Shown piece after piece: positions 33,687 to 51,072 of a DNA stretch of 64,000 nucleotides. Positions within the stretch are counted from its first letter, which is position 1, and every line of letters begins with the position of its first letter. The stretch comes from Nesterenkonia sandarakina. Lineage in GTDB: Bacteria > Actinomycetota > Actinomycetes > Actinomycetales > Micrococcaceae. Below the pieces are notes generated by a model that saw only the letters and a program-made list of their open reading frames with translations, searched no databases and was not told the DNA's origin. The position numbers were made by a program, and so were the translations under genes. The DNA lies in assembly GCF_013410215.1 (NCBI RefSeq), contig NZ_JACCFQ010000001.1:1240001-1304000 (forward strand). The letters run 5' to 3'.

Positions 33687-34226
33687 TCAGTGGTCCAGGA
33701 TCTGCCGCTTCGCGGAGATGACGCCGGTGTTGAAGCCTGAGAGGTGCAGGTTGCCGTGGAAGCGGCCGTGCTCGATCTTGATGCAACGGTTCTGCACCGC
33801 GTTGAGCCCCGCGTCCTGGGCCAGCTGCATGGCTGACTCGGATTCGATCCCCAGCTGCGCCCAGATGGTCTTCGCGCCGATCTCAGCCGCCTCCTCCGCG
33901 ATCCCGGGGACGTCCTCGGCGCGACGGAAGATGTCCACGATGTCGGGGACCTCCGGGAGGTCCTTCAACGAGGCGTAGACCGGCTGACCCAGCACCTCCT
34001 TGAGCCGCGGGTTCACGAAGTAGACCGTGTAGCTCGAAGAGCTCAGCAGATAGGTGGCTACGAAGTAGCTGGCCCGGGCTGGCTTGTCCGACATGCCCAC
34101 GATCGCCACAGACTTCGCGCTGCGCAGCAGCTGCAGCCGGCGGGAGGGCGACGGCGCCTCCCAGCGCCCATGGGGATGTTCGGCCGTGGCGTCGTCGTCG
34201 TGCTGCAATGTCTGCTCGCTCATCAC
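33687..34226 (-). CDS. CoA-binding-domain protein (YccU type)
   Basis: A 179-residue protein formed almost entirely by a Rossmann-like CoA_binding_2 domain (about 30-165): SVAIVGMSDKPARASYFVA is the nucleotide-binding start, then VYFVNPRLKEVLGQPVYASL and WAQLGIESESAMQLAQDAGL. It lacks any catalytic domain, and the family function is not established. It is the last gene of a SAM-riboswitch-controlled unit and overlaps the metY stop by four bases (34223-34226). In that setting it may bind CoA or an acyl-CoA made by the linked acetyl-CoA synthetase, but that is inference. Confidence 0.85.
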   Translation of the reverse strand: MMSEQTLQHDDDATAEHPHGRWEAPSPSRRLQLLRSAKSVAIVGMSDKPARASYFVATYLLSSSSYTVYFVNPRLKEVLGQPVYASLKDLPEVPDIVDIFRRAEDVPGIAEEAAEIGAKTIWAQLGIESESAMQLAQDAGLNAVQNRCIKIEHGRFHGNLHLSGFNTGVISAKRQILDH

Positions 34227-35530
34227 TTGTCTCCTTCGACTGCGGTGCTCAGCGCCGTCTCCAGCGCCTGGTCAAGGTCCCAGATGATGTCATCCACATC
34301 CTCGATCCCCACCGAGATGCGGATCAGATCCTCCGGGATCCCGGCCGCGCTCATCTGCTCCGGGGAGAGCTGCTGGTGGGTGGTGGATCCCGGATGCAGG
34401 ATCAGGGTGCGCACATCTCCCACATTGGCCAGGTGGCTGGCCAGCTGCAGAGACTCGATGAACCGGGCCCCGGCCTCGCGGCCCCCGCGGATCCCGAAGC
34501 TGAACACCGAACCGACGCCCTTGGGCAGCATCTCCTTGGCCCGGTCGTGATCGGCATGGGAGGGCAGCCCGGCGTAGTTCACGTAGTCCACGCGGTCATC
34601 GGCCTCGAGCCACTCTGCGACCTTCTGGGCATTGGCCACATGCTCATCGATCCGCTGCGGCAGCGTCTCGATGCCCTGGATCAGGTTGAACGCCGCCTGC
34701 GGGCCCAGCGAGGGCCCGATGTCGCGCAGCTGCTCGGCGCGCAGCTTGGTCAGGAACCCGTACTCCCCGAAGTTGCCCCACCAGGAGAGCCCGCCGTAGG
34801 AGGCCACCGGTTCGGTCATCGCAGGGAAGTTCCCGTTGTCCCAGGGGAACGTCCCGGACTCCACGACCACCCCGCCCAGCGTGGTGCCGTGGCCGCCCAT
34901 GAACTTGGTGACCGAGTGGATCACGATGTCCGCGCCGTGTTCGAAGGGACGGATCAGGTACGGGGTGGTCAAGGTTGAGTCCACCACCAGCGGCACGCCG
35001 TGCTTATGCGCGACCTCGGAGAGTCCGCGCAGGTCAGCGATGTCCGAGCTGGGGTTCGCGACCACCTCGGTGTAGAGAACCTTGGTGTTCTCCTGCATCG
35101 CGGCCTCGTAGTCCGCCGGCTCCAGGGAGTCCACGAAGGTGGTCTCGATCCCGAACCGGCGCAGCGTGACGTCGAGCTGGGTGATGGTGCCGCCGTAGAG
35201 CTTGGAGCTGGCCACGATGTGGTCCCCGGATCCGCAGAGCGCGGCGAAGACCAGGAACTCGGCGCTCATCCCGGAGGCGGTGGCCACCGCACCGATGCCG
35301 CCCTCCAGGGAGGCTACCCGCTCCTCCAGCGCCGAGACCGTGGGGTTGCCGATCCGGGAGTAGATGTTCCCGTACTTCTGCAGCGCGAAGAGGTTCGCGG
35401 CGTCGTCGGTGTCCTTGAACACGAAGGAGGTGGACTGGTGGATGGGCACGGCACGCGATCCATAGACGGCATCGGGGACGGCCCCGGCGTGCAGGGCGCG
35501 GGTGCGGAAGCCGAACTGGCGATCGCTCAT
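34223..35530 (-). CDS. metY: O-acetylhomoserine sulfhydrylase
   Basis: PLP-dependent enzyme (EC 2.5.1.49) that combines O-acetylhomoserine with sulfide, or methanethiol, to give homocysteine or methionine. The 435 residues match the MetY subfamily. The start [11 protein letters not shown] and [17 protein letters not shown] are typical, and the PLP lysine lies in [12 protein letters not shown] (about residue 213). It sits in a SAM-riboswitch-controlled operon and is overlapped by both neighbours, so all four genes are co-translated. Its role would be to capture sulfide released by the nearby oxygenases into methionine. Confidence 0.95.
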
Positions 35531-37593
35531 GTAGCTACCTCTTCTCTCCTCGGCGCGGTTCCGCGCCGTTGGCAGATCTCTTCGATTCTCGGGACACAGG
35601 GTTCATTCTGCAGGCTCGTGGTGTCTCCCAGGGTCTCCCCGTCATGGAGCTGGGTCAGCAGCCGGCGCATGATCTTCCCGGAGCGGGTCTTGGGGACCTC
35701 CGGAACCGGGATGACGGTGCGCGGCTTCGCGACCGGGCCGATCACCTCGCCCACGTGGTGGCGCAGCACGCGCAGCAGCTCCGCCTCGGACTCACTGCCC
35801 GTGCCTCCGGCGGAGTCCAGACGCTGTTGTGCGGCGGTGGTCAGCACGGTGAAGGCGACGGCTGCGTGTCCGGTCATGGGGTCGAAGACCGGGCAGACCC
35901 CGGCCTCGACCACGTCCGGGTGGGAGACCAGCGCGGATTCGATCTCGATGGTGGAGAGTCGGTGACCGGAGATGTTGATGACGTCATCGATCCGGCCCAG
36001 GATCCAGATGTCCCCGTCGGCGTCCTTCCGCGCCCCGTCCCCGGCGAGGAACCAGCCCTGCTGCGCGTACTTCTCCCAGTAGGAGCTGAAGTAGCGTTCC
36101 GGGTCTCCCCAGACGGTCCGCGCCATCGAGGGCCCGGTGTGGGTGAGCACGATGTTTCCCTGCTCCCCGCTGGGCACCGAGTCGCCCGCCTCGTCGACGA
36201 CGGCGGCGCCCCAGCCGGGCAGCTCGCGGGTCGCCGCTCCGGGCTTGAACCTGGAATCTTCCGGGCGCGGGGAGAGCACCGTGGACCCGGATTCGGACTG
36301 CCACCAGGTGTCCACCATGGGCAGGGCAGGCTGGCCGGCGTCGTCGGTGGTGTCCCGGCCGATCTCGCGGCGGATCCAGTGCCAGGCCTCCGGGTTCACG
36401 GCCTCGCCCACGGTGCCGGCGAGCCGGATGGAGGAGAGGTCATAGTGTGCCGGGACGCCGTCGGGGAACCAGCCCATGAGTGAGCGGACCAGGGTCGGCG
36501 CGGTGTAGTAGGTGGTGACCTTGTGGCGTTCGATGATCTCGAAGTGCCGGCCCTCATGCGGGGTGTTCGGGGTGCCTTCAAAGATCACCTGGGTGGCCCC
36601 GGCCGCCAGGGGCCCGTAGATCTCATAGGTGTGTGCGGTGACCCAGGCCAGGTCGGCGGTGCACCAGTGGACGTCCTGCGTGCGCCGGGCCGGATCCGGG
36701 TGGGCGAAGAGCCGCAGATAGGTGTAGAGCGCGCCGGTGAGGTAGCCCCCGGTGGTATGCACCAGGCCCTTGGGCTTGCCGGTGGTCCCGGAGGTGTACA
36801 TGATGAACAGCTCGGTCTCGGCGTCGAAGAACTCCGGGGTGTGCTCGGTGGAGGCGGTCTCCACCACCTCGTGCCACCAGAGGTCCCGTCCGGGGGTCCA
36901 CTCCACGTCCGAGTCGGTGCGGTTGATCACCAGGACGTGTTCCAGGTTGCCGCCGTGTGCAGCGCCCGCCTCGGCGACGGCGGCATCAGCGTTGGCCTTC
37001 ACCGGCACGGCCTTGCCGCGGCGGAACTGGCCATCTGTGGTGACCAGCAGCTTCGCCCCGGTGTCCTCCACCCGGAACTTCAGCGCCTCGGCGGAGAATC
37101 CGCCGAACACCAGCGAGTGCACCGCGCCGATCCGGGCGCAGGCCAGGGTGATCACGATGGTCTCCACCAGCACCGGCAGGTAGATCACCACCCGGTCGCC
37201 ACGGGTGATGCCCATCGAGGTCAGGGCGTTCGCCGCCTGGTTGACCCGGCGGCCCAGCTCCGCGTAGCTGACGTCCTCGCGGTCCCCAGGCTCGCCCTCG
37301 AAGTGCAGCGCGATCCGCTCGCCGTGCCCGGCGGCGACGTGACGGTCCACGCAGTTCACCGCCGCGTTGAGAGTCCCGCCCTGGTACCAGGCGATCTCCG
37401 GACCGCGCCGGGTGACCGGGTTCGGTGGGGTCCAGGAGTGCGTCTGGTGCCAGGGTGCGGCCCAGTCCAACAGGTTCGCCGCCGCGGACCAGAAGGCCAG
37501 GCGCTCGTCCTCGTTCTGCGGGTCCGCCCAGGCGTGCACATCGGCGCTCAGCGGGTCAGCGGGCACCGGGGTATTCGGAAGTGGGGTCACCAA
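35527..37593 (-). CDS. acs: Acetyl-CoA synthetase
   Basis: AMP-forming acyl-CoA synthetase, 688 residues. The ATP-binding loop is YTSGTTGKPKG (about 263-273), the hinge and A8 region follows GRIDDVINISGHRLS (about 550), and the catalytic lysine lies in TRSGKIMRRLL (about 636). The pocket motif VDTWWQSESGS keeps the Trp that in Salmonella Acs limits the acyl chain to acetate, so acetate is the likely substrate. Placement between a flavin reductase and metY under a SAM riboswitch is unusual; acetyl-CoA is needed for O-acetylhomoserine, the MetY substrate, and acetate is released by MetY itself, so recycling of acetate is a plausible role. Confidence 0.92.
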   Translation of the reverse strand: MVTPLPNTPVPADPLSADVHAWADPQNEDERLAFWSAAANLLDWAAPWHQTHSWTPPNPVTRRGPEIAWYQGGTLNAAVNCVDRHVAAGHGERIALHFEGEPGDREDVSYAELGRRVNQAANALTSMGITRGDRVVIYLPVLVETIVITLACARIGAVHSLVFGGFSAEALKFRVEDTGAKLLVTTDGQFRRGKAVPVKANADAAVAEAGAAHGGNLEHVLVINRTDSDVEWTPGRDLWWHEVVETASTEHTPEFFDAETELFIMYTSGTTGKPKGLVHTTGGYLTGALYTYLRLFAHPDPARRTQDVHWCTADLAWVTAHTYEIYGPLAAGATQVIFEGTPNTPHEGRHFEIIERHKVTTYYTAPTLVRSLMGWFPDGVPAHYDLSSIRLAGTVGEAVNPEAWHWIRREIGRDTTDDAGQPALPMVDTWWQSESGSTVLSPRPEDSRFKPGAATRELPGWGAAVVDEAGDSVPSGEQGNIVLTHTGPSMARTVWGDPERYFSSYWEKYAQQGWFLAGDGARKDADGDIWILGRIDDVINISGHRLSTIEIESALVSHPDVVEAGVCPVFDPMTGHAAVAFTVLTTAAQQRLDSAGGTGSESEAELLRVLRHHVGEVIGPVAKPRTVIPVPEVPKTRSGKIMRRLLTQLHDGETLGDTTSLQNEPCVPRIEEICQRRGTAPRREEVAT

Positions 37594-37605
37594 AGGTCCT
37601 TCTGC

Positions 37606-38136
37606 TCAGCTCAGGGAGGTCAGGGTCTTGAACTCGTGCTGGTGGAAGACCAGCCCTGCAGCACCCTCGGTGAAGCCCAGGTCCAGGATCTCGAGCACGA
37701 TGATGTCGTGGTCCCCGGCGCGGACCTGGTCGTAGATCCGGGTGCGCAGCCACATCGGGACGCCGTCGAGCAGCAGCGCCGAGCCCTGGAGCTGGTAGTC
37801 CACTCCGGTGAAGCGGTTCGCCCGGTCCTTCGAGGCGATCTGTCGGCACAGTCCGTTCTGGTCGCGGCCCAGCACCGAGATGCCCAGTTCGCCTCCGCTG
37901 CGCTCAAGCTTCGGCCAGGTGGAGGAGTTGTGCTGCACCGCCAGGGTGACCAGCGGCGGGTCGAGCGAGACGCCCACCGTGAAGGTGGAGGCGATGATCG
38001 CCTCGGGTGCTCCGTCCACCTCGGCGCCCACGGCGACGATTCCCTGCGGGAACTGCGCCAGGGCATGACGCAGCGCGAAGGAATCAACGCGGGACGCGGC
38101 GGTGGGGTTTTCCAGGGTGCGTGCGGGAACAGACAT
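37606..38136 (-). CDS. Flavin reductase family protein
   Basis: A 176-residue NAD(P)H:FMN reductase of the HpaC/SsuE-like flavin reductase domain family. FPQGIVAVGAEVDGAPEAIIASTFTVGV and SLDPPLVTLAVQHNSSTWP are typical, as is the closing HEFKTL. It probably supplies free FMNH2 to the two-component oxygenases encoded in the divergent and downstream units (38574-41433 and 48431-51072), none of which has a reductase partner of its own. ATG at 38136 has GGAG nine bases upstream, inside the riboswitch 3' strand. It is the first gene of the four-gene minus-strand operon. Confidence 0.9.
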   Translation of the reverse strand: MSVPARTLENPTAASRVDSFALRHALAQFPQGIVAVGAEVDGAPEAIIASTFTVGVSLDPPLVTLAVQHNSSTWPKLERSGGELGISVLGRDQNGLCRQIASKDRANRFTGVDYQLQGSALLLDGVPMWLRTRIYDQVRAGDHDIIVLEILDLGFTEGAAGLVFHQHEFKTLTSLS

Positions 38137-38147
38137 GCAGATCAACT

Positions 38148-38228
38148 CCATCGGTCCTGGCGTTAGCACCCGGCGTGTCCGGGTTGCTGCGGCGTCTCTG
38201 AGCCAGATCTCTCAGCCGCTCGGGATGG
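38148..38228 (-). ncRNA. SAM riboswitch (SAM-I clan, short P4-less form) of the flavin reductase-acs-metY unit
   Basis: On the minus strand the 81-base element has P1 strands ccatc (38224-38228) and gatgg (38148-38152), the core CTGAGAGATCTGG, GCAGCAACCC and GGTGCTAACGCCAG segments of the SAM-I clan, and a small P3 hairpin. The P4 arm of classical SAM-I is missing, which points to the SAM-I/SAM-IV variant class. The 3' P1 strand overlaps the GGAG ribosome site (38146-38149), so SAM binding should block translation initiation. Confidence 0.88.
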
Positions 38229-38238
38229 TGACGGGTCA

Positions 38239-38267
38239 ACGCTACGCGGGCTTCCGCCGACCAGCAA
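38239..38267 (-). promoter_or_regulatory. Candidate promoter of the flavin reductase unit
   Basis: Minus-strand -35 TTGCTG (complement of 38262-38267) and -10 TAGCGT (complement of 38239-38244) with a 17-base spacer, placed so that transcription would begin just before the riboswitch. Confidence 0.5.
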
Positions 38268-38442
38268 GAATTGCTCGCACTGTGAGACGCCGGATGACAT
38301 CCGCATCGTGGGGCAGGACTCTGGGTGTCGGATGAACACACTGTCGCCCCCGGCTGTCAGGGCGCACAGCGTTCAACGATATGCACCGCCTCCCTGATGG
38401 TCGCCGCCGCGGCGGATCGCAGGTGTGCGGCGTCGTTGCGAC

Positions 38443-38473
38443 TTGACGGGTGCGTCCCTGCGCCGTCTATATT
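38443..38473 (+). promoter_or_regulatory. Candidate promoter of the first DszC-like unit
   Basis: TTGACG (38443-38448) and TATATT (38468-38473), spacer 19 bases, end 11 bases before the riboswitch P1. The 170 bases between this and the divergent promoter show no further structure. Confidence 0.5.
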
Positions 38474-38484
38474 TAGCGTCATCA

Positions 38485-38565
38485 CCATCCAGAGCGACTG
38501 AGGGATCTGGCCCGTCGACGTCGCAGCAACCCGGACACGCCGGGTGCTAACGCCAGAACCGATGG
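38485..38565 (+). ncRNA. SAM riboswitch (SAM-I clan, short P4-less form) of the first DszC-like/DmoA-like unit
   Basis: An 81-base element with P1 ccatc (38485-38489) and gatgg (38561-38565), core CTGAGGGATCTGGCCC, GCAGCAACCC, P3 with a five-base loop, and GGTGCTAACGCCAG. P4 is absent. GATGG runs directly into the GGAGG ribosome site (38564-38568) of the gene starting at 38574, which implies control of translation by P1 formation. It is a near mirror image of the minus-strand element 260 bases away. Confidence 0.9.
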
Positions 38566-38573
38566 AGGATCGA

Positions 38574-39851
38574 ATGAACATTCAACTGCCTGTGCCCCAC
38601 GATCTGCGCGAGACCATTGCCCGTGTCGGGCTGCGCGCCCTCGACCGCGAGCGCAGCCGTGAACTGGCCCGCAGCGAGGTCAGTGACCTCGTCGTGGCCG
38701 GCATCGGTCGACTGCGTCTGCCGCGCTCGGTCGGGGGATTCGGCCTGGACTGGGTGGCCAGCACGGAGATCCTGCTGGAGCTCGCCGCCCAGGACAGCAA
38801 CATCCCACAGGTGCTGCGGGGGCACTTCGCAGTGCAGGAGGACCTGCTGTGGCGGGCCGATGCCGAGTCCGATGCCGCACCCGAAGCCCGGGACCTCGTC
38901 CGGCGCTGGCTCGCGCGGATCGCGGCGGGGGAGCTGGTCGGCAACGCCTGGACCGAGCCGGGCAAGGGCGGCTTCCACCAGTCCGGCACTGTGGTCAGCG
39001 AGTCCACCGACGGGCACGTGGTCAACGGGGTGAAGTACTACACCACCGGCGCGATCTTTGCGGATTGGCTCGATGTCACCGCCAGGGACGCCGCGGGCCA
39101 CGAGCTTGCGGTGCTGATGCGCCGGGACCAGCCAGGGGTGGAGATCGACGACGACTGGGACGGCTTCGGTCAGCGCACCACCGGTTCTGGCACCGCTCGG
39201 CTGAGTGACGCCGTGGTAGAGGAGGCCGAGTTGCGCGGACTGAACGATCGGTTCCCCTACCAGACCGCGCTCTACCAGCACTTCCTGCTGATCGTGCTCG
39301 CCGGGGTCTCCGAGGCCGCCGCCCGCGATGCCGCGGCATTGCTGCATGAGCGCTCGCGGACTTTCTCCCACGCCAATACCCGCACTCCGCGCACGGATCC
39401 ACAGCTGCTCCAGGCTGTCGGAGAGATCGATGCGGTGGCGGCGCTGGCGCGGGCGCAGGTCCTCGCGACCGCGGCGAGCTTGGATGCCGCCTTCGCCGCT
39501 CGGAGCAGCACCGAGGACGCCCAGATCGAGGCCGCCAATGCGGTGGAGCTCGCCACCGGTCGTGCCCAGGTGGCGCTGCACCGCCCCGTGCTGGAGGCCC
39601 TCACCCGGATCTTCGATGTCCTGGGCGCCTCCGGGGTAAGCCAGTCGCGCAGCCTGGACCGGCACTGGCGCAACGCGCGGACTGTCACCAGCCACAACCC
39701 CTGGGTCTATAAGGCTCGGATCGCGGGGGACCACCGGGTCAACGGCACCGCACCGGTCAGGCTGTGGAGCGTCGGCGAGCCCGACGCTGCGCAGACGCCT
39801 TCGGCTGAGGTCCCGCCAGGCGCACCGGAGAAGGTCACACCGGGTGCCTGA
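38574..39851 (+). CDS. DszC/SfnB-like flavin-dependent oxygenase (acyl-CoA dehydrogenase fold), copy 1
   Basis: A 425-residue protein of the acyl-CoA dehydrogenase fold but of the reduced-flavin monooxygenase branch that includes DszC and SfnB, which act on organosulfur compounds. Visible are an N-terminal helical domain, GNAWTEPGKGG and VNGVKYYTTGA in the central barrel, WDGFGQRTTGSGT, and the family-typical DRHWRNARTVTSHNPW in the last helices. It has no reductase domain, so FMNH2 must come from a partner such as the flavin reductase at 37606-38136. It is controlled by the riboswitch just upstream and followed by the DmoA-like gene after a 178-base gap. The C-terminal 35 residues are a poorly conserved tail. 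Confidence 0.88.
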   Translation: MNIQLPVPHDLRETIARVGLRALDRERSRELARSEVSDLVVAGIGRLRLPRSVGGFGLDWVASTEILLELAAQDSNIPQVLRGHFAVQEDLLWRADAESDAAPEARDLVRRWLARIAAGELVGNAWTEPGKGGFHQSGTVVSESTDGHVVNGVKYYTTGAIFADWLDVTARDAAGHELAVLMRRDQPGVEIDDDWDGFGQRTTGSGTARLSDAVVEEAELRGLNDRFPYQTALYQHFLLIVLAGVSEAAARDAAALLHERSRTFSHANTRTPRTDPQLLQAVGEIDAVAALARAQVLATAASLDAAFAARSSTEDAQIEAANAVELATGRAQVALHRPVLEALTRIFDVLGASGVSQSRSLDRHWRNARTVTSHNPWVYKARIAGDHRVNGTAPVRLWSVGEPDAAQTPSAEVPPGAPEKVTPGA

Positions 39852-39933
39852 TCTGCCCTCCCTGGTCCGGCGCCCGGTGTAGATCCTCGAGCGCGGCCCC
39901 CACGCCCAGGCACCGATCAGCCTCTGCCCGCCG

Positions 39934-39997: not shown

Positions 39998-40029
39998 CCC
40001 GAACGCCCGAACCCCAAGGAGAACCACGA

Positions 40030-41433
40030 ATGACCTACCCGAGAGCCGAATCCGGCAAGCGCGAGATCCTCTTCAACGCCTTCGACATGAACTGCGTGGT
40101 GCACCAGTCCCCGGGCCTGTGGCGGCACCCGGAAGACCGCGCCCGGGAGTACAACACCATCGGGTACTGGACCGAAGTGGCGCAGATCCTGGAACGCGGA
40201 CTCTTCGACGGCCTGTTCATCGCCGATGTGCTGGGCCCCTATGACGTCTTCGGCTCGAACCCGGAGGCCGCGCTGCGCTCCGGGGCGCAGATCCCGCTGC
40301 AAGATCCGTTCCTTCTGGTCTCCGCGATGGCCGCGGTCACCAAGAACCTGGGCTTCGGGATCACCGCCGGCACCGCTTACGAACACCCCTACCCCTTCTC
40401 CCGCCGCCTGGGCACCCTGGATCACCTCACCGGCGGCCGAGTGGGCTGGAACGTGGTCACCGGCTATCTGCCCTCGGCCGCGCAGAACATGGGTCAGGAC
40501 GATCAGATGGAGCACGATCGCCGCTACGACCACGCCGATGAGTACCTCGACGTGGTCTATAAGCTCCTCGAAGGCTCCTGGGAGGACGACGCCGTGCTGG
40601 CCGACAAGGCCTCAGGGGTGTTCACCGACCCGAACAAGGTGCACCGGATCGAACACCACGGCGAGTTCTTCAAGACCCCCGGGATCGGCGTGGTGGAGCC
40701 CTCCCCGCAGCGCACCCCGGTGATCTACCAGGCGGGCGCCTCCAGCCGAGGCCGCGCCTTCGCCGGCAAACACGCCGAGGCGGTGTTCATCAATCCGCCC
40801 ACCAAGGAGCTGGCCAAAGCCTCGGTGGCCAAGATCCGTGCTTCCGTGGCGGAGGCCGGACGTGACCCCTACTCGGTGCGGATCTTCGCGATGCAGACCA
40901 TCGTCACCGGTGAGGACAACGCCGCCGCGCAGGCCAAATACGAGGACCTCACCCGCTACATCGACGCCGAGGGCGGACTGGTGCTGATGTCGGGCTGGAT
41001 GGGCATCGATCTGAGCCAGTTCGACCTCGACCAGCCCATCGGAGACGTGAAGTCCAACGCCATCCAGTCCACGGTGGAGACCTTCCAGAAGGCCTCCGGC
41101 CGAGAGGACGAGGTCTGGACCGTCCGGCAGCTCGCCGAGTGGGTCGGCGTCGGCGGCTTCGGCCCGGTCATCATCGGCGACGGCCCGACCGCAGCCCAGC
41201 AGCTGATCGAGTGGCAGGAGGAGACCGATGTGGACGGGTTCAACCTGGCCTACCACATCACCCCTGGAACCTTCGAGGATGTGGTGGAGCATGTGGTGCC
41301 CGAGCTGCAGCGACTCGGCCGCTATAAGACCGAGTATGCCCCGGGCACGCTGCGCAATAAGCTCTTCGGTGCCGGAGATCACCTGCCCGCCGAGCACCAC
41401 GGCGCGCAGTTCCAGCTGCGCCGCAAGGGCTGA
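40030..41433 (+). CDS. NtaA/DmoA-family FMN-dependent monooxygenase, copy 1
   Basis: A 467-residue luciferase-like TIM-barrel monooxygenase of the NtaA/SnaA/DszA/DmoA family. FNAFDMNCVVHQSPGLWRHP, the ERGLFDGLFIADVLG strand, GTLDHLTGGRVGWNVVTGYL and the SSRGRAFAGKHAEAVFI flavin-binding part are family hallmarks, and its opening resembles dimethylsulfide monooxygenase DmoA. It requires reduced FMN from a separate reductase. Members oxidise C-S or C-N bonds; with DszC-like neighbours and SAM-riboswitch control, an organosulfur substrate is most likely. ATG at 40030 has AAGGAG upstream. A large hairpin follows. Confidence 0.9.
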   Translation: MTYPRAESGKREILFNAFDMNCVVHQSPGLWRHPEDRAREYNTIGYWTEVAQILERGLFDGLFIADVLGPYDVFGSNPEAALRSGAQIPLQDPFLLVSAMAAVTKNLGFGITAGTAYEHPYPFSRRLGTLDHLTGGRVGWNVVTGYLPSAAQNMGQDDQMEHDRRYDHADEYLDVVYKLLEGSWEDDAVLADKASGVFTDPNKVHRIEHHGEFFKTPGIGVVEPSPQRTPVIYQAGASSRGRAFAGKHAEAVFINPPTKELAKASVAKIRASVAEAGRDPYSVRIFAMQTIVTGEDNAAAQAKYEDLTRYIDAEGGLVLMSGWMGIDLSQFDLDQPIGDVKSNAIQSTVETFQKASGREDEVWTVRQLAEWVGVGGFGPVIIGDGPTAAQQLIEWQEETDVDGFNLAYHITPGTFEDVVEHVVPELQRLGRYKTEYAPGTLRNKLFGAGDHLPAEHHGAQFQLRRKG

Positions 41434-44552: not shown

Positions 44553-44564
44553 CAGAGGTTACTC

Positions 44565-44672
44565 CCATCGATCCTGGCGGTAGCACCCGGCGAAAAGATG
44601 TCCCTTGACGAGGCATCCTTCCCTGGGTTGCTGCGGCGTCGACGAGCCAGATCTCTCGGCCGCTCGGGATGG
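44565..44672 (-). ncRNA. SAM riboswitch of the sulfonate ABC unit, long P3 and variant J3/4
   Basis: Same architecture as the other three elements: P1 ccatc (44668-44672) / gatgg (44565-44569), core CCGAGAGATCTGG and GCAGCAACCC, no P4. Two differences stand out: the P3 arm is longer (about 25 extra bases), and the normally invariant GCTAACGCC reads GCTACCGCC, an A-to-C change in the junction next to P1. The 3' P1 strand overlaps the GGGAG ribosome site (44562-44566) of ssuB. Confidence 0.83.
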
Positions 44673-44682
44673 TACGAAGATC

Positions 44683-44712: not shown

Positions 44713-44756
44713 CGTGGAGTTCATCAGGTGAGATAAAACGCAACACCGGGGTCGAC

Positions 44757-44787: not shown

Positions 44788-44799
44788 GAAGATACTCAA

Positions 44800-44893
44800 C
44801 CATCCAGAGCGACTGAGAGATCTGGCTCGAAGACGTCGCAGCAACCCGGAGGGCCGCAAGGCTCCGGCCGGGTGCTAACGCCAGGACCGATGG
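44800..44893 (+). ncRNA. SAM riboswitch of the metNIQ and second oxygenase unit
   Basis: A 94-base element: P1 ccatc (44800-44804) / gatgg (44889-44893), CTGAGAGATCTGGC, GCAGCAACCC, an extended P3, and GGTGCTAACGCCAG; P4 missing. GATGG merges with the GGAG ribosome site (44892-44895) of the gene starting at 44904. It controls six genes. Confidence 0.9.
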
Positions 44894-44903
44894 AGTACGC
44901 CTC

Positions 44904-45797
44904 ATGATTTCCCTCTCCCATGTCTCGACGACCTTCGCCGCCCGCGGCAGGCAGCCGCTGACCGCGGTCGACGATGTCAGCCTGGAGGTGCCGCGCGGCA
45001 GCATCCAAGGCATCATCGGGTTCTCCGGCGCCGGCAAGTCGACCCTGCTGCGGAACATCAACCTCTTGGAACGTCCCACCTCGGGCAGGGTCAGCGTCGG
45101 AGGCACCGACCTGACCAGCCTGGATGACACCGCGCTGCGCCGGGCTCGGCATCAGATCGGCATGATCTTTCAGGGATTCAATCTCGTGAACAACCTCTCG
45201 GTCGCCCAGAACGTGGAGCTCTCACTGAAGTTCGCCGGGGTCACCAGCCGCCGGGAGCGTCAGGCCCGCGTGTCCGAGGCGCTGGAGATCGTGGACCTCA
45301 CCGAGAAGACCTCGGTCTATCCGGCCCAGCTCTCCGGGGGGCAGAAGCAACGGGTGGCCATCGCCCGCGCTCTGGCCACCAGACCCGAGGTGCTGCTCTG
45401 CGACGAACCGACCTCGGCTCTGGATCCCTTCACCACCGCGACCGTGCTGCAGTACCTCGCAGATGTCAATCGCGAGTTCGGCATCACCGTGGTGATCGTG
45501 ACCCATGAGATGGAGGTCATCAAGGCCCTCGCGGATGACGTCGCAGTCATGGAGGACGGACGCGTGGTCGAAGAGTTCCCCGCCGCGCAGCTGCGCCGGG
45601 AAGGCTTCGACCCCCAGACCTCCATCGGGAAATACCTGCTCAGCGACGGGATCACACTCGACCGCAGGTCCAACGCAGAAAGCGGGCCGGCCTCCGCGCC
45701 GCGCGTGGCATCCTCCGATCCGGACGCTGGGTCGGACGCTGATCCGGATCGGTCAGCGCAGGCCACGCTGGCTGGCTCCGTCGGGGGTGTGCGCTGA
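44904..45797 (+). CDS. metN: Methionine-type ABC importer ATP-binding protein without NIL domain
   Basis: A 297-residue MetN-like ATPase. Walker A GFSGAGKST (about 38-46), Q-loop with FQGFNLVNNLSV, signature LSGGQKQR, Walker B VLLCDEPTSALDP, and VTHEMEVIKALADDVAVME, which is characteristic of MetN. Typical MetN (about 340 residues) ends in a C-terminal NIL domain that binds methionine and inhibits transport. Here the last 55 residues are Ser/Ala/Asp-rich and low complexity, so that domain is missing and transinhibition is probably lost; the SAM riboswitch may take over control. Stop and start of metI overlap by one base. Confidence 0.9.
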   Translation: MISLSHVSTTFAARGRQPLTAVDDVSLEVPRGSIQGIIGFSGAGKSTLLRNINLLERPTSGRVSVGGTDLTSLDDTALRRARHQIGMIFQGFNLVNNLSVAQNVELSLKFAGVTSRRERQARVSEALEIVDLTEKTSVYPAQLSGGQKQRVAIARALATRPEVLLCDEPTSALDPFTTATVLQYLADVNREFGITVVIVTHEMEVIKALADDVAVMEDGRVVEEFPAAQLRREGFDPQTSIGKYLLSDGITLDRRSNAESGPASAPRVASSDPDAGSDADPDRSAQATLAGSVGGVR

Positions 45798-46465
45798 TGG
45801 ACCTCGTCATCGAACGACTGCCCGAGATCAATCAGGCCATGCTGGAGACCTTCGCGATGATCGCGGTCGCCATCCCGGTGGCGGTCCTGCTGGGCACCCC
45901 GCTGGGGATCTGGCTCTTCGTCCACGCTCCCGAGGGCCTTGCCCCGCGGCCCCGATCCCATGCTGTGGTCTCGGGGATGGTGAACATGATCCGATCCTTC
46001 CCCTTCCTGATCCTGCTCATCGCGATCATCCCGTTCACCCGGTTCGTGGTGGGGACCTCGGTGGGGACCGCCGCGGTGATCGTTCCGCTGACGATCAACG
46101 CGATCCCCTACTTCGCGCGTCTGGTGGAGCAGAACATCACCCAGCTGGGCTCCGGCGCGGTGGAGGCATCCAGGGCGATGGGCGCGACCCGCGGCCAGAT
46201 CATCCGCAATGTGCTGCTCGTCGACGCCAAACCCGGACTGATCGGGTCCATCACCATCACCACGGTCAGCTTCATCTCCTACTCGGCGATGTCAGGGCTG
46301 GTCGGCGGCGGCGGGATCGGAGACCTGGCCATCCGCTACGGCTACTACCGCTACGAGACCCCCACCATGGTCGCGGCGATCGTGCTGATGGTGCTGCTGG
46401 TGAGCCTGGTGCAGTTCACCGGCACCCGGCTCGCCCGCGCCTCAGACCGACGCATCACCGCCTAG
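45797..46465 (+). CDS. metI: Methionine-type ABC importer permease
   Basis: A 222-residue MetI-like permease with five predicted helices. NMIRSFPFLILLIAIIPFTR and EASRAMGATRGQIIRNVLL (coupling loop) are diagnostic, and SAMSGLVGGGGIGDLAIRYGY closes the core. It lies between metN and the two metQ genes. The stop codon lies inside a short tandem repeat that supplies two further in-frame stops. Confidence 0.93.
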   Translation: MDLVIERLPEINQAMLETFAMIAVAIPVAVLLGTPLGIWLFVHAPEGLAPRPRSHAVVSGMVNMIRSFPFLILLIAIIPFTRFVVGTSVGTAAVIVPLTINAIPYFARLVEQNITQLGSGAVEASRAMGATRGQIIRNVLLVDAKPGLIGSITITTVSFISYSAMSGLVGGGGIGDLAIRYGYYRYETPTMVAAIVLMVLLVSLVQFTGTRLARASDRRITA

Positions 46466-46506
46466 ACCAGCATCACTGCCTAGACCAGGGCCACCGCCTG
46501 AGCAGA
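46453..46506 (+). repeat. 18-bp tandem repeat spanning the metI stop codon
   Basis: Three tandem 18-base units (46453-46470, 46471-46488, 46489-46506; the third diverged) begin with catcac or similar and each carries a stop codon in the metI frame (TAG, TAG, TGA). The 197-base gap to metQ otherwise has only a small stem near the ribosome site. Confidence 0.65.
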
Positions 46507-46662
46507 GTCAGCTTCTGACCGCGCTTCCGCGCCACCCCGCCCCACACCACCCGCACACATCACCTGACCCCGTTCCCGGGGCCGGCGTCCGACGTCGCGC
46601 CCGGGTCCGTCCCGCACACCCTCTGGGCCCTGCGCCCAGCACGAGAAAGCAGCTTCAGAACC

Positions 46663-47535
46663 ATGACTCATCCACGCCCCAGAATCCTCTCCGGCGCAGT
46701 CCTCGCCAGCGCAGCGCTGGGCCTGACCAGCTGCGGGCTGGTGGAGGACGACTCCACGATCAGCATCGTGGTCACCGAATCCGCGCCCTTCCAGGAACCG
46801 GCAGAGATCGCCGCAGAGCTGCTCGAAGAGCAGGGCTACGAACTCGACATCACCTATATGACCGACATCGTCCAGCCCAACCAGGTGGTCAACCAGGGCG
46901 AGTACGAGGGCAACTACTTCCAGCACCTGGCTTATCTGAACAACTTCAACGCCTCGAACGACACCGCGGTGCAGCCGCTGTTCTCGGTCTACTACGCCCC
47001 GGCCGGGCTGTTCTCGCTGGAGTACGACTCGCTGGAGGAGCTCCCCGACGGGGCTGAGATCAACCTGCCGGTGGACCCCTCCAACAACGGCCGGGCGCTG
47101 CAGCTGCTGGCGGACGAGGGCCTGATCGAGGTCGACGAGAGCGTCTCGATCATCGACCTGACCCAGAACGACATCACCGAGAATCCCCGGGACTTCCGGT
47201 TCGTGGAGACCGACCAGCAGTCCGCCGCGCAGGTGCTGCCCGATGTGGACGCCGGCTTCGCCTTCGTCCGGCTGATCGCTGAGGCCGACCTCGACGTGGA
47301 GGAGACGGCGCTGAGCATCGAGGACGGCCGCGAGGAGGTGCGCACCCCATTCACCTGCGTGGTCGCCGTCGGCCCCGAGGGGGTCAGCGATGAACAGGCC
47401 CAGGCGCTGCAGGACGCATTCCAGTCCGAAGAGGTCGAACAGTGGTTCGAGGACTACCAGGGCGGGGTCATCGACTTCGAGGACTTCATCACCATCGACA
47501 ATGCCGAAGAGATCTGGACGGACTTCAGCGCATGA
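46663..47535 (+). CDS. metQ: MetQ-family substrate-binding lipoprotein 1
   Basis: A 290-residue NlpA/MetQ-type receptor. The signal peptide ends in the lipobox LTSC (C24). IVVTESAPFQEPAEIAAELL, DIVQPNQVVNQGEYEGNYFQHLAYL and INLPVDPSNNGRALQLLADEGLI are typical MetQ segments; the protein is very acidic. The first lines share a VVTE-APFQEP motif with MetQ 2. It probably binds methionine, methionine sulfoxide or a related thioether; ligand residues were not compared. Overlaps the next gene by four bases (ATGA). Confidence 0.92.
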   Translation: MTHPRPRILSGAVLASAALGLTSCGLVEDDSTISIVVTESAPFQEPAEIAAELLEEQGYELDITYMTDIVQPNQVVNQGEYEGNYFQHLAYLNNFNASNDTAVQPLFSVYYAPAGLFSLEYDSLEELPDGAEINLPVDPSNNGRALQLLADEGLIEVDESVSIIDLTQNDITENPRDFRFVETDQQSAAQVLPDVDAGFAFVRLIAEADLDVEETALSIEDGREEVRTPFTCVVAVGPEGVSDEQAQALQDAFQSEEVEQWFEDYQGGVIDFEDFITIDNAEEIWTDFSA

Positions 47536-48434
47536 GCACCTCCAGCGCCCCCACACTCTCCCGGCGTCGAGTATTGAGCGGCTCACTGGGCATGGCCGCT
47601 CTGCTCGGCGTCGGGAGCCTCACCTCCGGCTGCGGGCTGGTGGACCGGATCGGCGGTGACCGCACGCTGCGCCTTGTGGTCACCGAGAATGCTCCCTTCC
47701 AAGAGCCGACCCGGATCGCACAGCGCATCCTTGAATCCGAGGGCTGGGAGTTCGACGCCACCTACGTCACCGACATCATCCAGCCCAACCACGCGGTGAA
47801 CAACGGCGAGTACGACGTCAACTTCTTCCAGAACATCAGCTACCTGCGCCAGTTCAACGCAGACAACGACTTGGACATCGAACCGATCTTCTTCATGTTC
47901 GAGCAGCCCTCCGGGATCTACTCCGAGCAGTACGACTCACTTGAGGAGCTCCCCGACGGGGCTCAGGTCGCCCTGCCTGTGGACACTGCGAACAACGGAC
48001 GGGGGATCCGGCTGCTGGCCCGCGGCGGCCTGATCGAGATCGACGAGTCCAAACCTGTCGCCGCGCTGAGCGTGAATGACATCACCGCCAACCCCAAGGA
48101 CCTGCAGTTCATCGAGGTGGACCAGCAGTCGGTGGGCCAGATCTATTCCGACGTCGACGCCGTCTTCGGCTTCGCCCGGCTGCTGGCCGAGATCGATGTG
48201 CTGCCCGAGGAGGTGTTGATCATGGAGTCAGCCGAGGAGGCGCTGCCGTTCGCGCTCGCGGTCTGCGCGCGCCCTGGCTTCCGCGAGGAGCAGCCCGAAC
48301 GCTATCAGGCGCTGAAGTCGGCCTACCATTCGCAGCCGGTGCGCCAGTGGTACGGGGACTACCTCGACGGTCTGCTCACCCCGGCCTTCGACCGAGACAT
48401 CGACGCCGCATGGGAGCAGGTGAACGCCTCATGA
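47532..48434 (+). CDS. MetQ-family substrate-binding lipoprotein 2, Tat signal
   Basis: A 300-residue second receptor in tandem, clearly paralogous to the first (VVTENAPFQEPTRIAQRIL, DIIQPNHAVNNGEYDVNFFQNISYL, VALPVDTANNGRGIRLLA). Its signal peptide differs: it has a twin-arginine motif (SRRRVLSG) before the lipobox LTSGC, so it is probably exported by Tat, whereas copy 1 uses Sec. The ATG at 47532 overlaps the stop of copy 1. Two receptors for one MetNI importer suggest two ligands. Confidence 0.9.
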   Translation: MSTSSAPTLSRRRVLSGSLGMAALLGVGSLTSGCGLVDRIGGDRTLRLVVTENAPFQEPTRIAQRILESEGWEFDATYVTDIIQPNHAVNNGEYDVNFFQNISYLRQFNADNDLDIEPIFFMFEQPSGIYSEQYDSLEELPDGAQVALPVDTANNGRGIRLLARGGLIEIDESKPVAALSVNDITANPKDLQFIEVDQQSVGQIYSDVDAVFGFARLLAEIDVLPEEVLIMESAEEALPFALAVCARPGFREEQPERYQALKSAYHSQPVRQWYGDYLDGLLTPAFDRDIDAAWEQVNAS

Positions 48435-49651
48435 GCCGCGCAATCCCTGCAGAGCTGCTCACCCGGATCCGGGAGGGAGCCGTCGAGCGCGAGCTGGATC
48501 GGATCCTGCCCTTCGAACAGGTCGGCTGGCTCGACGACGCCGGCTTCGGCGCCCTGCGCGTCCCGGCCGAGTTCGGCGGCCCGGATCTCAGCGTCGAGGA
48601 GCTGATCCGTGAGGTGATCGCGCTGGCCGAGGCGGACTCCAACGTCGCACACCTCTACCGCGGCCACTTCGGCTTCGTGGAGTCGCTGCGCTTCCAGCCC
48701 GCGGCGATCCGCGAGCTCTGGTATGCCCGAGTGCTCAACGGCAGCACCGTGGGCAACGCCTCCACCGAGCGGAGCGGCAACGCGCTGGGCAGCCTGAACA
48801 CCCGACTGGAATCCGGCCCGACCGGGGCGGCTCTGCTGACCGGGGAGAAGCACTACTCCACCGGGACGATCTTCTCCACCTATACCCGCGTCTCGGCCGC
48901 CCAGGCAGATCAGGGGGAGGGGCGTCGGTTCGCGGTGGTGCCCACCGACGCCCCCGGGGTCACGCTGCTCGATGACTGGGACGGCTTCGGGCAGAAGCTC
49001 ACCGGCACCGGGACCACGCTGCTGGAATCGGTGGCCGTGGAGGAACTGGGCGTCCTCCAGCGCAGCCCCGGCGACCATGAGTCCGTCCACGAGGCCGCGT
49101 TCTTCCAGCTCTATCTGCTCGCCGTCCAGGCTGGCATCGCCAAGGCCGCCCTGGCCGACGCGACCTCCACGCTGGCGCGGCGCACCCGCACCTTCAACAC
49201 CTCCACCGCCGGACAGGCCTTCCGGCAGGATCCGCTGATCCAACAGGTGGTCGGGACGATGTCCTCGAAGGCCTTCGTGGCCGAGGCTGCGGTGCTAGAA
49301 GCGGCCCGCGCCGTGGACCGGGCGCTGAGCGCGGGCCTGCAGGCCGGCACCGGTGACCCGGGCTTCAGCGCCCCCGCGCCGCGCGAGATCCACGACGCAG
49401 AGATCGCCGTGGAGAAGGCCCAGATCAGCGTGCCGGACCTGGTGCTGGCCGTGACCTTGGAGCTGTTTCAGACCGCCGGTGCCTCCGCCACGGTGCGCAG
49501 CAAGGGGCTGGACCGGCATTGGCGCAACGCGCAGACCATCGCCACGCATAACCCGATCGTCTTCCGTGCCCGCTCGCTCGGGGACCATGAGATCAACGGC
49601 ACCCTGCCTCAGGGGCTCAACGCCATCGGCGAGGCCAAGGAGAAGTCATGA
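48431..49651 (+). CDS. DszC/SfnB-like flavin-dependent oxygenase, copy 2
   Basis: A 406-residue acyl-CoA-dehydrogenase-fold oxygenase, paralogous to the protein at 38574-39851: GNASTERSGN, GEKHYSTGTIFS, WDGFGQKLTGTGT and DRHWRNAQTIATHNPI correspond in order. It needs reduced flavin from a separate reductase. ATG at 48431 overlaps the MetQ 2 stop. Divergence from copy 1 across the substrate pocket suggests a different substrate; coupling to MetNIQ points to a methionine-like or thioether compound, as inference. Confidence 0.87.
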   Translation: MSRAIPAELLTRIREGAVERELDRILPFEQVGWLDDAGFGALRVPAEFGGPDLSVEELIREVIALAEADSNVAHLYRGHFGFVESLRFQPAAIRELWYARVLNGSTVGNASTERSGNALGSLNTRLESGPTGAALLTGEKHYSTGTIFSTYTRVSAAQADQGEGRRFAVVPTDAPGVTLLDDWDGFGQKLTGTGTTLLESVAVEELGVLQRSPGDHESVHEAAFFQLYLLAVQAGIAKAALADATSTLARRTRTFNTSTAGQAFRQDPLIQQVVGTMSSKAFVAEAAVLEAARAVDRALSAGLQAGTGDPGFSAPAPREIHDAEIAVEKAQISVPDLVLAVTLELFQTAGASATVRSKGLDRHWRNAQTIATHNPIVFRARSLGDHEINGTLPQGLNAIGEAKEKS

Positions 49652-51072
49652 CCATCCATTTCAACGCCTTCGACATGGTGGTGCCGGTGCATCAGTCTCC
49701 AGGACTGTGGCGACACCCGGACTCCCGCATCGAGGAGTTCGACACCCTCGAGTACTGGACCGAGCTGGCTAGGACCGTGGAACGCGCCGGATTCTCCTCG
49801 TTGTTCCTCGCCGACATCCCGGGGGTCTACGACGTCTACGGCGGCACCGCCGAGGCTGCCGCGAAGGGCGGCGTGCAGTTCCCGCTGCTGGACCCTCAGG
49901 TCATGGTGCCGGCCCTGGCTGCGGCGACGACGCACCTCGGCTTCGGGCTGACCGCCTCGGTCACCTATGAGGCCCCCTACGCACTGGCTCGGCGCCTGGC
50001 CACACTGGACCACCTCACCCGTGGACGGATCGCGTGGAACATCGTGACCAGTTACCAGGAGTCCGCAGCGCGAAACCTCGGACTCAGCGGGCAGATCCCG
50101 CACGACGAGCGCTACGACCGTGCCGATGAGTACCTCGAGGTGATGTACAAGCTCTTCGAGCACTCCCACGAGGCGGGGTCGGTGCTGGCGGACAAGTCCA
50201 CCGGGGTCTTCGTGGACCCGGAGAAGGTGCACCCGATCAGCCACCGCGGGGAGTGGTTCGATGTGCCGGGGGAGATGCTCACCCACCCGGGCCCGCAGCG
50301 CACACCGCTGCTCTTCCAGGCGGGCTCCTCAGCGCGCGGTCAGAAGTTCGCGGTGGACCACGCGGAGGCGATCTTCGTCATCAGCTCCTCACCGCAGCGA
50401 CTGGCGCACCAGGTCGCCGACACCCGGGGGAAGCTGCTCGAGGCCGGCCGGGATCCCGAGTCGGTCCGGTTCTTCGCGATGGCGACGATCATCGTGGCCG
50501 AGACCCAGGACCTGGCGCAGGCCCGACTGGCGGAGTGCCGGGACTACGTGGACACCGCCTCGGCGCTCACGCTCTTCGGCGGGTGGACCGGAGTCGACCT
50601 CTCAGGCCTGGCCGAGGACGACGTCGTCAGCGATGTGCAGACCGAGGCCAATCAGTCCGCGCTGGCGATGTTCACCAAGGACCCCGCCAAGCGCTGGACG
50701 GTCCGCGATGTCGCGGAGTTCATCTCGATCGGCGGACGCGGGCCGCTGATCGTGGGGGATCCGGTGCAGGTGGTCGATGAGCTGGTCCGCTTCCAGCAGC
50801 TCTCCGGAGTGGACGGGTTCAACATCTCGGCGGCGGTCCGGCCCGCAGACTTCGAGCGCTTCGAGACCTTCGTGACCCCCGAGCTGCGGCGCCGCGGACT
50901 GCTGCCGGAGCGCCCCCAGACACCGGTGACCCTTCGCGAGGCGCTGCTGGAGGAAGGTCCGCATCTGCGCGCGGATCATCCCGCGCCCCGCTGCGGCGCA
51001 GGAGCTCAGCGCGAGGCGCGCAGCAGGATCTCATCGGCGATCGCGCCGGCCAAGTCCCGGGACTCGCCGTAG
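49648..51072 (+). CDS. NtaA/DmoA-family FMN-dependent monooxygenase, copy 2
   Basis: A 474-residue luciferase-like monooxygenase, paralogous to the protein at 40030-41433: FNAFDMVVPVHQSPGLWRHP, FSSLFLADIPGVYDVYG, ATLDHLTRGRIAWNIVTSYQ and SSARGQKFAVDHAEAIFV. It is the last gene of the six-gene SAM-controlled unit and overlaps its upstream neighbour by four bases. The final 30 residues (after LRADH) are not family-like and overlap the convergent ATP-grasp gene by 67 bases, which suggests a lost original stop codon. Confidence 0.88.
   Translation: MTIHFNAFDMVVPVHQSPGLWRHPDSRIEEFDTLEYWTELARTVERAGFSSLFLADIPGVYDVYGGTAEAAAKGGVQFPLLDPQVMVPALAAATTHLGFGLTASVTYEAPYALARRLATLDHLTRGRIAWNIVTSYQESAARNLGLSGQIPHDERYDRADEYLEVMYKLFEHSHEAGSVLADKSTGVFVDPEKVHPISHRGEWFDVPGEMLTHPGPQRTPLLFQAGSSARGQKFAVDHAEAIFVISSSPQRLAHQVADTRGKLLEAGRDPESVRFFAMATIIVAETQDLAQARLAECRDYVDTASALTLFGGWTGVDLSGLAEDDVVSDVQTEANQSALAMFTKDPAKRWTVRDVAEFISIGGRGPLIVGDPVQVVDELVRFQQLSGVDGFNISAAVRPADFERFETFVTPELRRRGLLPERPQTPVTLREALLEEGPHLRADHPAPRCGAGAQREARSRISSAIAPAKSRDSP

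Follow-up and report, generated by a model that had tools for sequence, protein, structure and literature searches.

What would a bacterium gain from placing importers, flavin-dependent oxygenases and a methionine-forming enzyme behind four neighboring S-adenosylmethionine (SAM) riboswitches, and which sulfur compounds would such an arrangement serve? This question is raised by a 64,000-nucleotide stretch of the Nesterenkonia sandarakina genome (contig NZ_JACCFQ010000001.1, positions 1,240,001 to 1,304,000; hereafter the window), in which four SAM-I aptamers, all within 6.8 kb, precede four units with a total of 15 genes. Unit A (reverse strand) encodes a flavin reductase, an acetyl-CoA synthetase (Acs), MetY and a CoA-binding protein; unit B (forward strand) encodes one SfnB/DszC-like and one DmoA-like oxygenase (SfnB1 and Dmo1); unit C (reverse strand) encodes SsuB-, SsuA- and SsuC-like proteins; and unit D (forward strand) encodes MetN- and MetI-like proteins, two MetQ/NlpA lipoproteins and a second pair of SfnB-like and DmoA-like oxygenases (SfnB2 and Dmo2). 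We read this island as a compact SAM-I regulon of the Micrococcaceae, the family in which Nesterenkonia is placed by NCBI, that would supply sulfur at low SAM through import, carbon-sulfur (C-S) cleavage that yields a thiol or a sulfenate, capture by MetY and recycling of acetate. The chemistry of these steps is predicted from protein similarity, and the reading as a whole is given about an even chance of being correct.

Identity and layout of the riboswitches

An Rfam 15 cmscan of the whole window returned exactly four matches over the gathering threshold of 44.4 bits, all of them to the SAM-I family RF00162 (E-values 3.2e-11 to 4e-7; Table 1), and the initial annotation of the window, which had named four SAM elements in two divergent pairs and had called for a covariance-model scan, is thereby borne out for all four regions (45.3-59.4 bits). 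The sequence also confirms its placement of each element directly 5' of the first gene of a unit. The weakest aptamer, that of unit C, lies barely above the cut-off at 45.3 bits; a family-specific covariance model, the alignment of which includes the four window aptamers, scores them at 83-95 bits (83.4 for unit C). Across the whole genome (3,017,448 bases in 2 contigs, completeness 99.92%), a search for RF00162 at an E-value of 0.001 recovered only the four elements of the island. SAM-I-IV (RF01725) was dropped as an alternative class because none of 21 Nesterenkonia genomes, the window's own included, has a match; the genome-wide search covered RF00162 and RF01725, and other SAM classes were covered within the window by the all-family Rfam scan.

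In all four leaders the 3' strand of the P1 helix has the sequence GAUGG, continued by AG or GAG. The GG of the Shine-Dalgarno sequence (SD) therefore lies within P1, and the start codon follows 5-9 nt after the SD. This layout, with the ribosome-binding site in the P1 3' strand and the start at SD spacing, is the known "direct translation attenuation" type and was found in 4/4 leaders, with the SD partly in P1. In the accessible text of Barrick and Breaker 2007 (PMC2258182), direct translation attenuation by SAM-I riboswitches is described with the ribosome-binding site built into the 3' side of P1; the idea that a P1-embedded SD is new was dropped for this reason, and relative to that text the island shows no demonstrable mechanistic difference, although its gene set differs. 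Intrinsic termination was rejected for the window leaders, in which the ATG follows 5-9 nt after the SD; no terminator-like site was found between aptamer and gene in any of the four, and the only terminator-like match lies upstream of aptamer B. Neither of the divergent intergenic regions contains a promoter-like site according to a sigma-70 scan. Binding of SAM would stabilize P1 and keep translation from starting; at low SAM the SD would be exposed. The later genes of each unit would follow via translational coupling or transcript stability. Judged by riboswitch class and layout, the four RNA switches probably turn the genes off when SAM is sufficient.

The same layout extends to much of the family. 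An alignment of 33 family aptamers, among them the window's four, shows no variation in four of the five P1 pairs (CCAU/AUGG); the fifth pair is C-G in 32 aptamers. A larger set of 117 matches from 51 sources was reduced to 102 distinct aptamers by counting identical leaders once, with loci L035/L068, L038/L066, L039/L067 and L041/L071 taken as the same genomes. GATGGAG or GATGGGAG ends 87 of these 102, and an ATG opening at least 150 codons begins at +3 to +13 in 70 of them, compared with 0-7 in each of eleven other 11-nt intervals (to +134); the start is at SD distance from P1 in about two thirds of distinct aptamers. Other family leaders are longer with an identical P1 end, and their aptamers must work otherwise.

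Apparent lack of sulfate and sulfite reduction

The siroheme sulfite/nitrite reductase domain NIR_SIR (PF01077) has no match in the window's genome, where two first-look candidates were scored and failed; it is matched in 16/21 genus genomes and in 11/14 control genomes. Additionally, PAPS_reduct (PF01507, the family of CysH and CysD) has no match in the window's genome, compared with matches in 10/21 genus genomes and 14/14 control genomes. With neither domain matched, known enzymes should therefore not allow the species to assimilate either sulfate or sulfite. From this gene content the host seems unable to use either compound, and any sulfite formed in it would be a dead end by known enzymes. 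A double-domain NIR_SIR enzyme, read as a putative sulfite reductase, is encoded in eight genus genomes (G178, G153, G218, G228, G254, G248, G138 and G249), with pieces of it in G252 (62% complete); the remaining PF01077-matching genus genomes have a single domain only, in a frame of approximately 900 codons, and this protein is read as a putative nitrite reductase.

Within the family, PF01507 is matched in 154/245 genomes. SAM-I matches (E-value 0.001) occur in 87/91 genomes without PF01507 vs. 117/154 genomes with it (Fisher p = 3e-5), and copy number is slightly higher without it (median 3 vs. 2, p = 0.014); both tests ignore relatedness and count matches below gathering, and the riboswitch search ran with stricter filters that lose weak matches.

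Oxygenases

Dmo1 and Dmo2 both pass the NtaA/DmoA subfamily cut-off (TIGR03860; Table 1) and are the only proteins of this family above it genome-wide, the third match being a 20-bit fragment. The closest PDB sequence to both in phmmer searches is the dimethyl sulfide (DMS) monooxygenase DmoA (6ak1; 516 and 453 bits for Dmo1 and Dmo2, respectively), followed by alkane monooxygenase LadA (3b9n; 440 and 361 bits), a hexachlorobenzene oxidative dehalogenase (362 and 319 bits) and a riboflavin lyase (290 and 285 bits), with DszA (282 and 245 bits) and YtnJ (251 and 196 bits) lower among the matches. We take YtnJ to be the same protein as CmoJ. By sequence comparison, Dmo1 and Dmo2 are nearer to the thiol-releasing DMS monooxygenase than to DszA, SsuD or SfnG. 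Within the aligned part they are 50.6% and 46.1% identical to DmoA, and they keep 17/20 and 16/20, respectively, of the binding residues listed in the accessible sections of PMC9259527, where DmoA is described as converting DMS to methanethiol. The likeness to this DmoA/DmoB system extends to a flavin reductase encoded in the island; the island enzymes differ in standing with an SfnB-like oxygenase and a SAM switch, and the DmoA reaction, in which FMNH2-dependent cleavage of DMS yields methanethiol and formaldehyde, is a prediction for them.

The SfnB family (TIGR04022) has five matches genome-wide, and the two strong ones are those of the island. Both miss the equivalog cut-off (Table 1), and both also miss that of DszC (NF043015; 102.3 bits for SfnB1 and 107.5 for SfnB2 vs. 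850). The nearest PDB sequence is MsuC (6u76; 109 and 110 bits), and the two proteins are distant relatives of MsuC and DszC.

Importers, MetY and acetyl-CoA synthetase

Of the two importers of the ATP-binding cassette (ABC) type, the SsuABC-like one passes the SsuA family cut-off and misses the SsuB and SsuC equivalog cut-offs, and the MetNIQ-like one misses all curated cut-offs (Table 1; MetQ, 101.8 and 86.2 bits vs. 374). The MetN-like ATPase (297 amino acids) matches ABC_tran and has no NIL domain match (Pfam, E-value 0.001). The NIL domain of Escherichia coli MetN senses methionine and mediates inhibition by it; given the absent NIL match, the MetN-like importer may lack methionine feedback. 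In other genomes of the family, SAM-I leaders stand before TIGR04028-like ABC binding proteins (loci L014, L028, L032 and L033; 339-361 bits against a cut-off of 468.5, with frames cut by the locus ends), which we regard as a further importer type in the regulon.

MetY has a second full-length copy in the genome, directly before metX (C1:1515378 and C1:1516869; MetX, 414.7 bits vs. a cut-off of 500), and the genome-wide RF00162 search found no SAM-I element at this metY-metX locus. The island MetY is approximately 50% identical to the metX-adjacent copy and 83-97% identical to island counterparts in Nesterenkonia and Garicola koreensis. The island Acs is also a second genome copy above its cut-off (TIGR02188; the other copy, at C1:710566, scores 927 bits), and its nearest PDB sequence is the acetyl-CoA synthetase 2p20 (565 bits). 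The MetY reaction releases acetate, which Acs would convert back to acetyl-CoA for MetX, and such recycling appears to be the simplest reading of Acs beside MetY. The initial annotation had assigned Acs no role. Activation of a larger acid was set aside: the protein is above the AcsA cut-off and the acetate-pocket residues, which we take to be V310, T311, V386 and W414 in Salmonella numbering, look unchanged in the alignment. As a separate observation, a SAM-I element precedes a MetY-like protein slightly below the TIGR01326 cut-off (457.5 vs. 495.1 bits) at L023 1501-3037 (genome G023).

Proposed route and alternatives

Combined, these components suggest the following sequence of events. When the switches are on, the MetNIQ-type and SsuABC-type ABC importers would bring in small organosulfur compounds, and the two oxygenase pairs, each consisting of one SfnB/MsuC-like and one DmoA-like enzyme, would oxidize the imports and cut the C-S bond, using reduced flavin that the unit A flavin reductase would supply to both pairs. 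Because the genome has neither a CysH/CysD match nor a sulfite reductase match, useful sulfur must emerge as a thiol, as sulfide or as a readily reduced sulfenate, and the cleavage product would be like that of DmoA (methanethiol) or CmoJ (a sulfenate). The MetY of the regulon would then join the product to O-acetylhomoserine, giving methionine from methanethiol and homocysteine from sulfide. A narrower version, in which the island is a SAM-I-controlled, sulfite-independent salvage in bacteria that have lost assimilatory sulfate reduction, with DmoA-type thiol release, a dedicated second MetY and a dedicated Acs, is held tentatively, at rather less than an even chance.

Several observations weigh against this route. 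The transporter and SfnB matches fall mostly below equivalog cut-offs, and their assignment is at the level of the family. The island is also present in relatives that have CysH/CysD-family genes and a double-domain sulfite reductase (G138 and G153), where a sulfite route would be possible. According to the accessible sections of PMC9259527, no methanethiol was seen from recombinant DmoA, the Hyphomicrobium enzyme included, a result blamed there on the reductase partner. In Acinetobacter baylyi, as far as the accessible text of PMC13352529 goes, three of five acyl-CoA-dehydrogenase-fold enzymes converted DMS to dimethyl sulfoxide (two of them on to dimethyl sulfone in the assay used) on a route to sulfite, and none of nine TIM-barrel enzymes oxidized DMS. 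At the RNA level, the P1 end is the same in leaders with a far-downstream start, so that SD-like letters in P1 are no proof of SD use, and ligand-free ViennaRNA ensembles of the four leaders do not separate an open from a closed SD state: the SD is mostly paired whether P1 is forced or opened, which speaks neither for nor against masking. Finally, 12 of the 30 named loci found by SfnB1 similarity have no aptamer match in the fetched stretch; these include Brevibacterium, Brachybacterium, Burkholderiales, Shimwellia, Microbacterium, Arthrobacter gandavensis and Paeniglutamicibacter terrestris, the last two of which we take to belong to Micrococcaceae genera.

The initial annotation had led sulfonates, sulfones and thioethers through sulfite and sulfide to MetY. 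The part of this proposal that stands is a single regulon under SAM riboswitches that covers the uptake and oxidation of organosulfur compounds, includes MetY and recurs in the family. Its sulfite step is unsupported in this organism, in which neither a sulfite reductase domain nor a CysH/CysD-family protein was matched and the Dmo enzymes are nearer to DmoA than to DszA, SsuD or SfnG, and we consider the route through sulfite improbable here, even with an SsuA-family binding protein above its cut-off, MsuC/DszC-like oxygenases in the island and the sulfite reductases and CysH/CysD-family genes of some island-bearing relatives in its favor. It would also have a precedent in the DMS-to-sulfite path described with such enzymes in A. 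baylyi ADP1 (accessible text of PMC13352529). That system resembles the island in combining TIM-barrel and acyl-CoA-dehydrogenase-fold flavin oxygenases with one flavin reductase to obtain sulfur from a small organosulfur compound; it differs in proceeding through sulfite and then sulfide, where sulfite reduction is missing here, in having TIM-barrel enzymes inactive on DMS, and in that the accessible main text mentions no riboswitch.

Salvage of amino-acid thioethers in the manner of CmoO and CmoJ of Bacillus would dispense with a sulfite reductase as well. The MetNIQ-type importer would bring in S-alkyl-cysteines, methionine or its oxides, the SfnB-like enzymes would form sulfoxides, the Dmo-like enzymes would form sulfenates, and thiol reduction would yield cysteine or homocysteine, leaving MetY on another branch. 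The composition of unit D, in which MetNI, two MetQ, SfnB2 and Dmo2 form one mostly overlapping gene run, fits such a scheme, as do the YtnJ matches of both Dmo proteins, but DmoA is much closer to Dmo1 and Dmo2 than YtnJ, and the N-acetyltransferase and deacetylase used by the CmoO/CmoJ pathway are absent among the 15 genes. CmoO and SfnB, moreover, are presumably of different protein families, which also counts against this scheme, and we regard it as possible but unlikely. Its chemistry is described in the accessible sections of PMC10863075, where CmoJ cleaves sulfoxides and the resulting sulfenic acids are reduced afterwards. Very unlikely, in our estimate, is a role in detoxification or carbon use, in which the oxygenases would serve to break down xenobiotic thioethers or alkanes, with a SAM switch that merely mirrors sulfur status: LadA and the hexachlorobenzene oxidative dehalogenase are the second and third closest solved relatives of Dmo1 and Dmo2, but SAM-I control together with MetY and a MetNIQ-type importer, recurrent across genera, points to sulfur supply.

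Distribution in the Micrococcaceae and beyond

A protein search with SfnB1 returned eight named Nesterenkonia records at 67-89% identity. Loci L035-L064 were picked by SfnB1 similarity and loci L065-L084 around riboswitch clusters, a choice that biases the gene tallies towards the island. In Blast maps of 50 related loci, combined for 23 of them with riboswitch maps, the island's modules stand behind SAM-I elements in rearranged order; the gene order of the window is kept in L035-L038 as far as these loci extend. Different combinations of the Ssu, MetNIQ, SfnB, Dmo and Acs modules also lie close to aptamers in further genera of the family (G001, G016, G021, G027, G030, G034, G055, G072, G169 and G210). 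The gene-neighborhood search that the initial annotation had proposed finds the island modules recurring both within Nesterenkonia and in these other genera. Loci L082 and L084 hold little beyond MetNIQ. Units led by an aptamer begin with Acs in L042, L076, L078, L079 and L083. In the tally of first genes, subject to the same biased choice of loci, 89 of 98 distinct non-window aptamers precede SsuB (19), MetN (17), SfnB1 (17), FlvR (14), SfnB2 (8), Dmo1 (6), Acs (5) or Dmo2 (3), and 9 have no assigned first gene.

RF00162 (E-value 0.001) is matched in 204/245 family genomes, 182 of them above the cut-off, including 16/16 same-genus genomes; the 730 matches in total amount to at least two copies in 163 genomes, with a maximum of 9. 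Of 118 genomes drawn across the class, 116 lie outside the family; 89 of these have a match (a single copy in 85, two copies in 4), and the aptamer is absent from all six genomes of the order's other families listed in that draw. High copy numbers in the family against mostly single copies elsewhere make the multiplication of SAM-I therefore a Micrococcaceae feature within this sample.

Outside the Micrococcaceae, Corynebacterium otitidis ATCC 51513 (L043 9889-11218) has a lone SAM-I element, which is followed after 4 nt by the ATG of an SfnB1-like gene (58% identity). An accessory cassette was also observed in or beside islands, at L040 11302-17400 with related parts in L042, L044, L070, L045, L051, L060 and L062; it comprises a sugar-type binding protein (SBP_bac_1), permeases, an aldo/keto reductase in some loci, and divergent SfnB and Dmo copies (approximately 26-38% identical to the window's in Nesterenkonia loci), with ten representatives covered by the Pfam scan. 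Its layout suggests that the cassette may salvage a sulfur-bearing sugar or thioglycoside.

Known parallels and significance

Among described systems, the SAM-riboswitch methionine regulon of SAR11 comes closest in its logic. According to the accessible text of PMC5069961, "Candidatus Pelagibacter ubique" lacks assimilatory sulfate reduction and relies on reduced organic sulfur, including methanethiol, and several SAM riboswitches, some of which occlude the ribosome-binding site and many of which lie in one genome region, steer sulfur to methionine, metY included. The same text shows the differences: the switches there are of the SAM-V and SAM-II classes, whereas those of the island are SAM-I; they precede bhmT, mmuM, metY and metX, and sulfur acquisition is described as constitutive, whereas in Nesterenkonia, a member of a different phylum, importers, oxygenases and Acs stand behind the switches. 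A survey of RNA regulons covers, among actinobacteria, the Corynebacteriaceae and Mycobacteriaceae only (accessible part of PMC3766115). Among the papers listed by searches of the open-licence literature, none describes a regulon of this composition, which does not show its absence from print; the remark in the initial annotation that it knew of no described system with exactly this composition holds to that extent, with the qualification that SAR11 has a similar logic.

The island connects a SAM-switched organosulfur regulon of a large actinobacterial family with the loss of sulfate assimilation and provides a closed, testable set of four leaders, 15 genes and a single predicted end reaction. 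Should the thiol route prove right, methionine would be made in one step from methanethiol under SAM control and without sulfite reduction, acetyl-CoA synthetase would have an unusual role as an anabolic partner, and actinobacteria would join SAR11-like organisms that live on the reduced sulfur of others.

Gene content of the four units

The coordinates of the aptamers and genes are collected in Table 1. Starts at 38136 (flavin reductase), 38574 (SfnB1), 47532 (MetQ2) and 48431 (SfnB2) were adopted instead of the longest-open-reading-frame starts at 38169, 38544, 47442 and 48347, respectively, from which the profile scans were run.

Table 1. Aptamers and genes of the SAM-I island, in window positions, with the profile scores behind each assignment.
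Feature	Positions	Strand	Evidence
SAM-I aptamer, unit A	38145..38231	-	RF00162 55.6 bits; SD GGAG 38146-38149, GG in P1 3' strand, 9 nt before ATG (38136)
SAM-I aptamer, unit B	38482..38568	+	RF00162 59.4 bits; SD GGAGG 38564-38568, GG in P1 3' strand, 5 nt before ATG (38574)
SAM-I aptamer, unit C	44562..44675	-	RF00162 45.3 bits; SD GGGAG 44562-44566, partly in P1 3' strand, 9 nt before ATG (44552)
SAM-I aptamer, unit D	44797..44896	+	RF00162 49.9 bits; SD GGAG 44892-44895, GG in P1 3' strand, 8 nt before ATG (44904)
Flavin reductase (HpaC/HsaB/RutF-like)	37606..38136	-	PF01613 95.6 bits; no NCBIfam equivalog cut-off reached
Acetyl-CoA synthetase (AcsA family)	35527..37593	-	TIGR02188 742.3 bits, cut-off 724.95
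MetY, O-acetylhomoserine sulfhydrylase	34223..35530	-	TIGR01326 591.1 bits, cut-off 495.1
Small CoA-binding protein (CoA_binding_2)	33687..34226	-	PF13380 137.8 bits
SfnB/MsuC/DszC-like two-component oxygenase 1 (SfnB1)	38574..39851	+	TIGR04022 227.2 bits, below cut-off 430.9
DmoA-like FMN-dependent monooxygenase 1 (Dmo1)	40030..41433	+	TIGR03860 544.9 bits, cut-off 279.7
SsuC-like permease	41543..42379	-	PRK11365 174.3 bits, below cut-off 347; PF00528
SsuA-family binding protein	42376..43452	-	TIGR01728 202.2 bits, cut-off 163.5
SsuB-like ATPase, unit C first gene	43665..44552	-	PRK11247 222.4 bits, below cut-off 395
MetN-like ATPase	44904..45797	+	TIGR02314 276.3 bits, below cut-off 499.7; aligned to profile 1-240 of 343
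MetI-like permease	45797..46465	+	PRK10782 205.5 bits, slightly below cut-off 212
MetQ/NlpA-type lipoprotein 1 (MetQ1)	46663..47535	+	PF03180 178.7 bits
MetQ/NlpA-type lipoprotein 2 (MetQ2)	47532..48434	+	PF03180 160.2 bits; 50% identical to MetQ1
SfnB/MsuC/DszC-like oxygenase 2 (SfnB2)	48431..49651	+	TIGR04022 269.5 bits, below cut-off 430.9; 37% identical to SfnB1
DmoA-like monooxygenase 2 (Dmo2)	49648..51072	+	TIGR03860 478.2 bits, cut-off 279.7; 48% identical to Dmo1

Stop and start codons overlap at the Acs/MetY, MetY/CoA-binding, SsuA/SsuC, MetN/MetI, MetQ1/MetQ2, MetQ2/SfnB2 and SfnB2/Dmo2 junctions, and the flavin reductase ends 12 nt before Acs; upstream of Dmo1, SsuA and MetQ1 the gaps widen to 178, 212 and 197 nt, respectively. 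Because each switch acts directly on the start of the first gene only, its control of the later genes is a prediction. The initial claim that four switches control 15 genes thus holds in that all 15 genes are present, but direct contact is limited to the first start codons, with the gaps of approximately 180-210 nt standing before three of the later genes. The CoA_binding_2 gene, which overlaps metY, has the same neighbors in most of those Nesterenkonia islands for which the sequence extends to this gene. Elsewhere in the window, a nonribosomal peptide synthetase with three stretches each of condensation and adenylation domains occupies positions 3-8420 on the reverse strand and runs off the window start.

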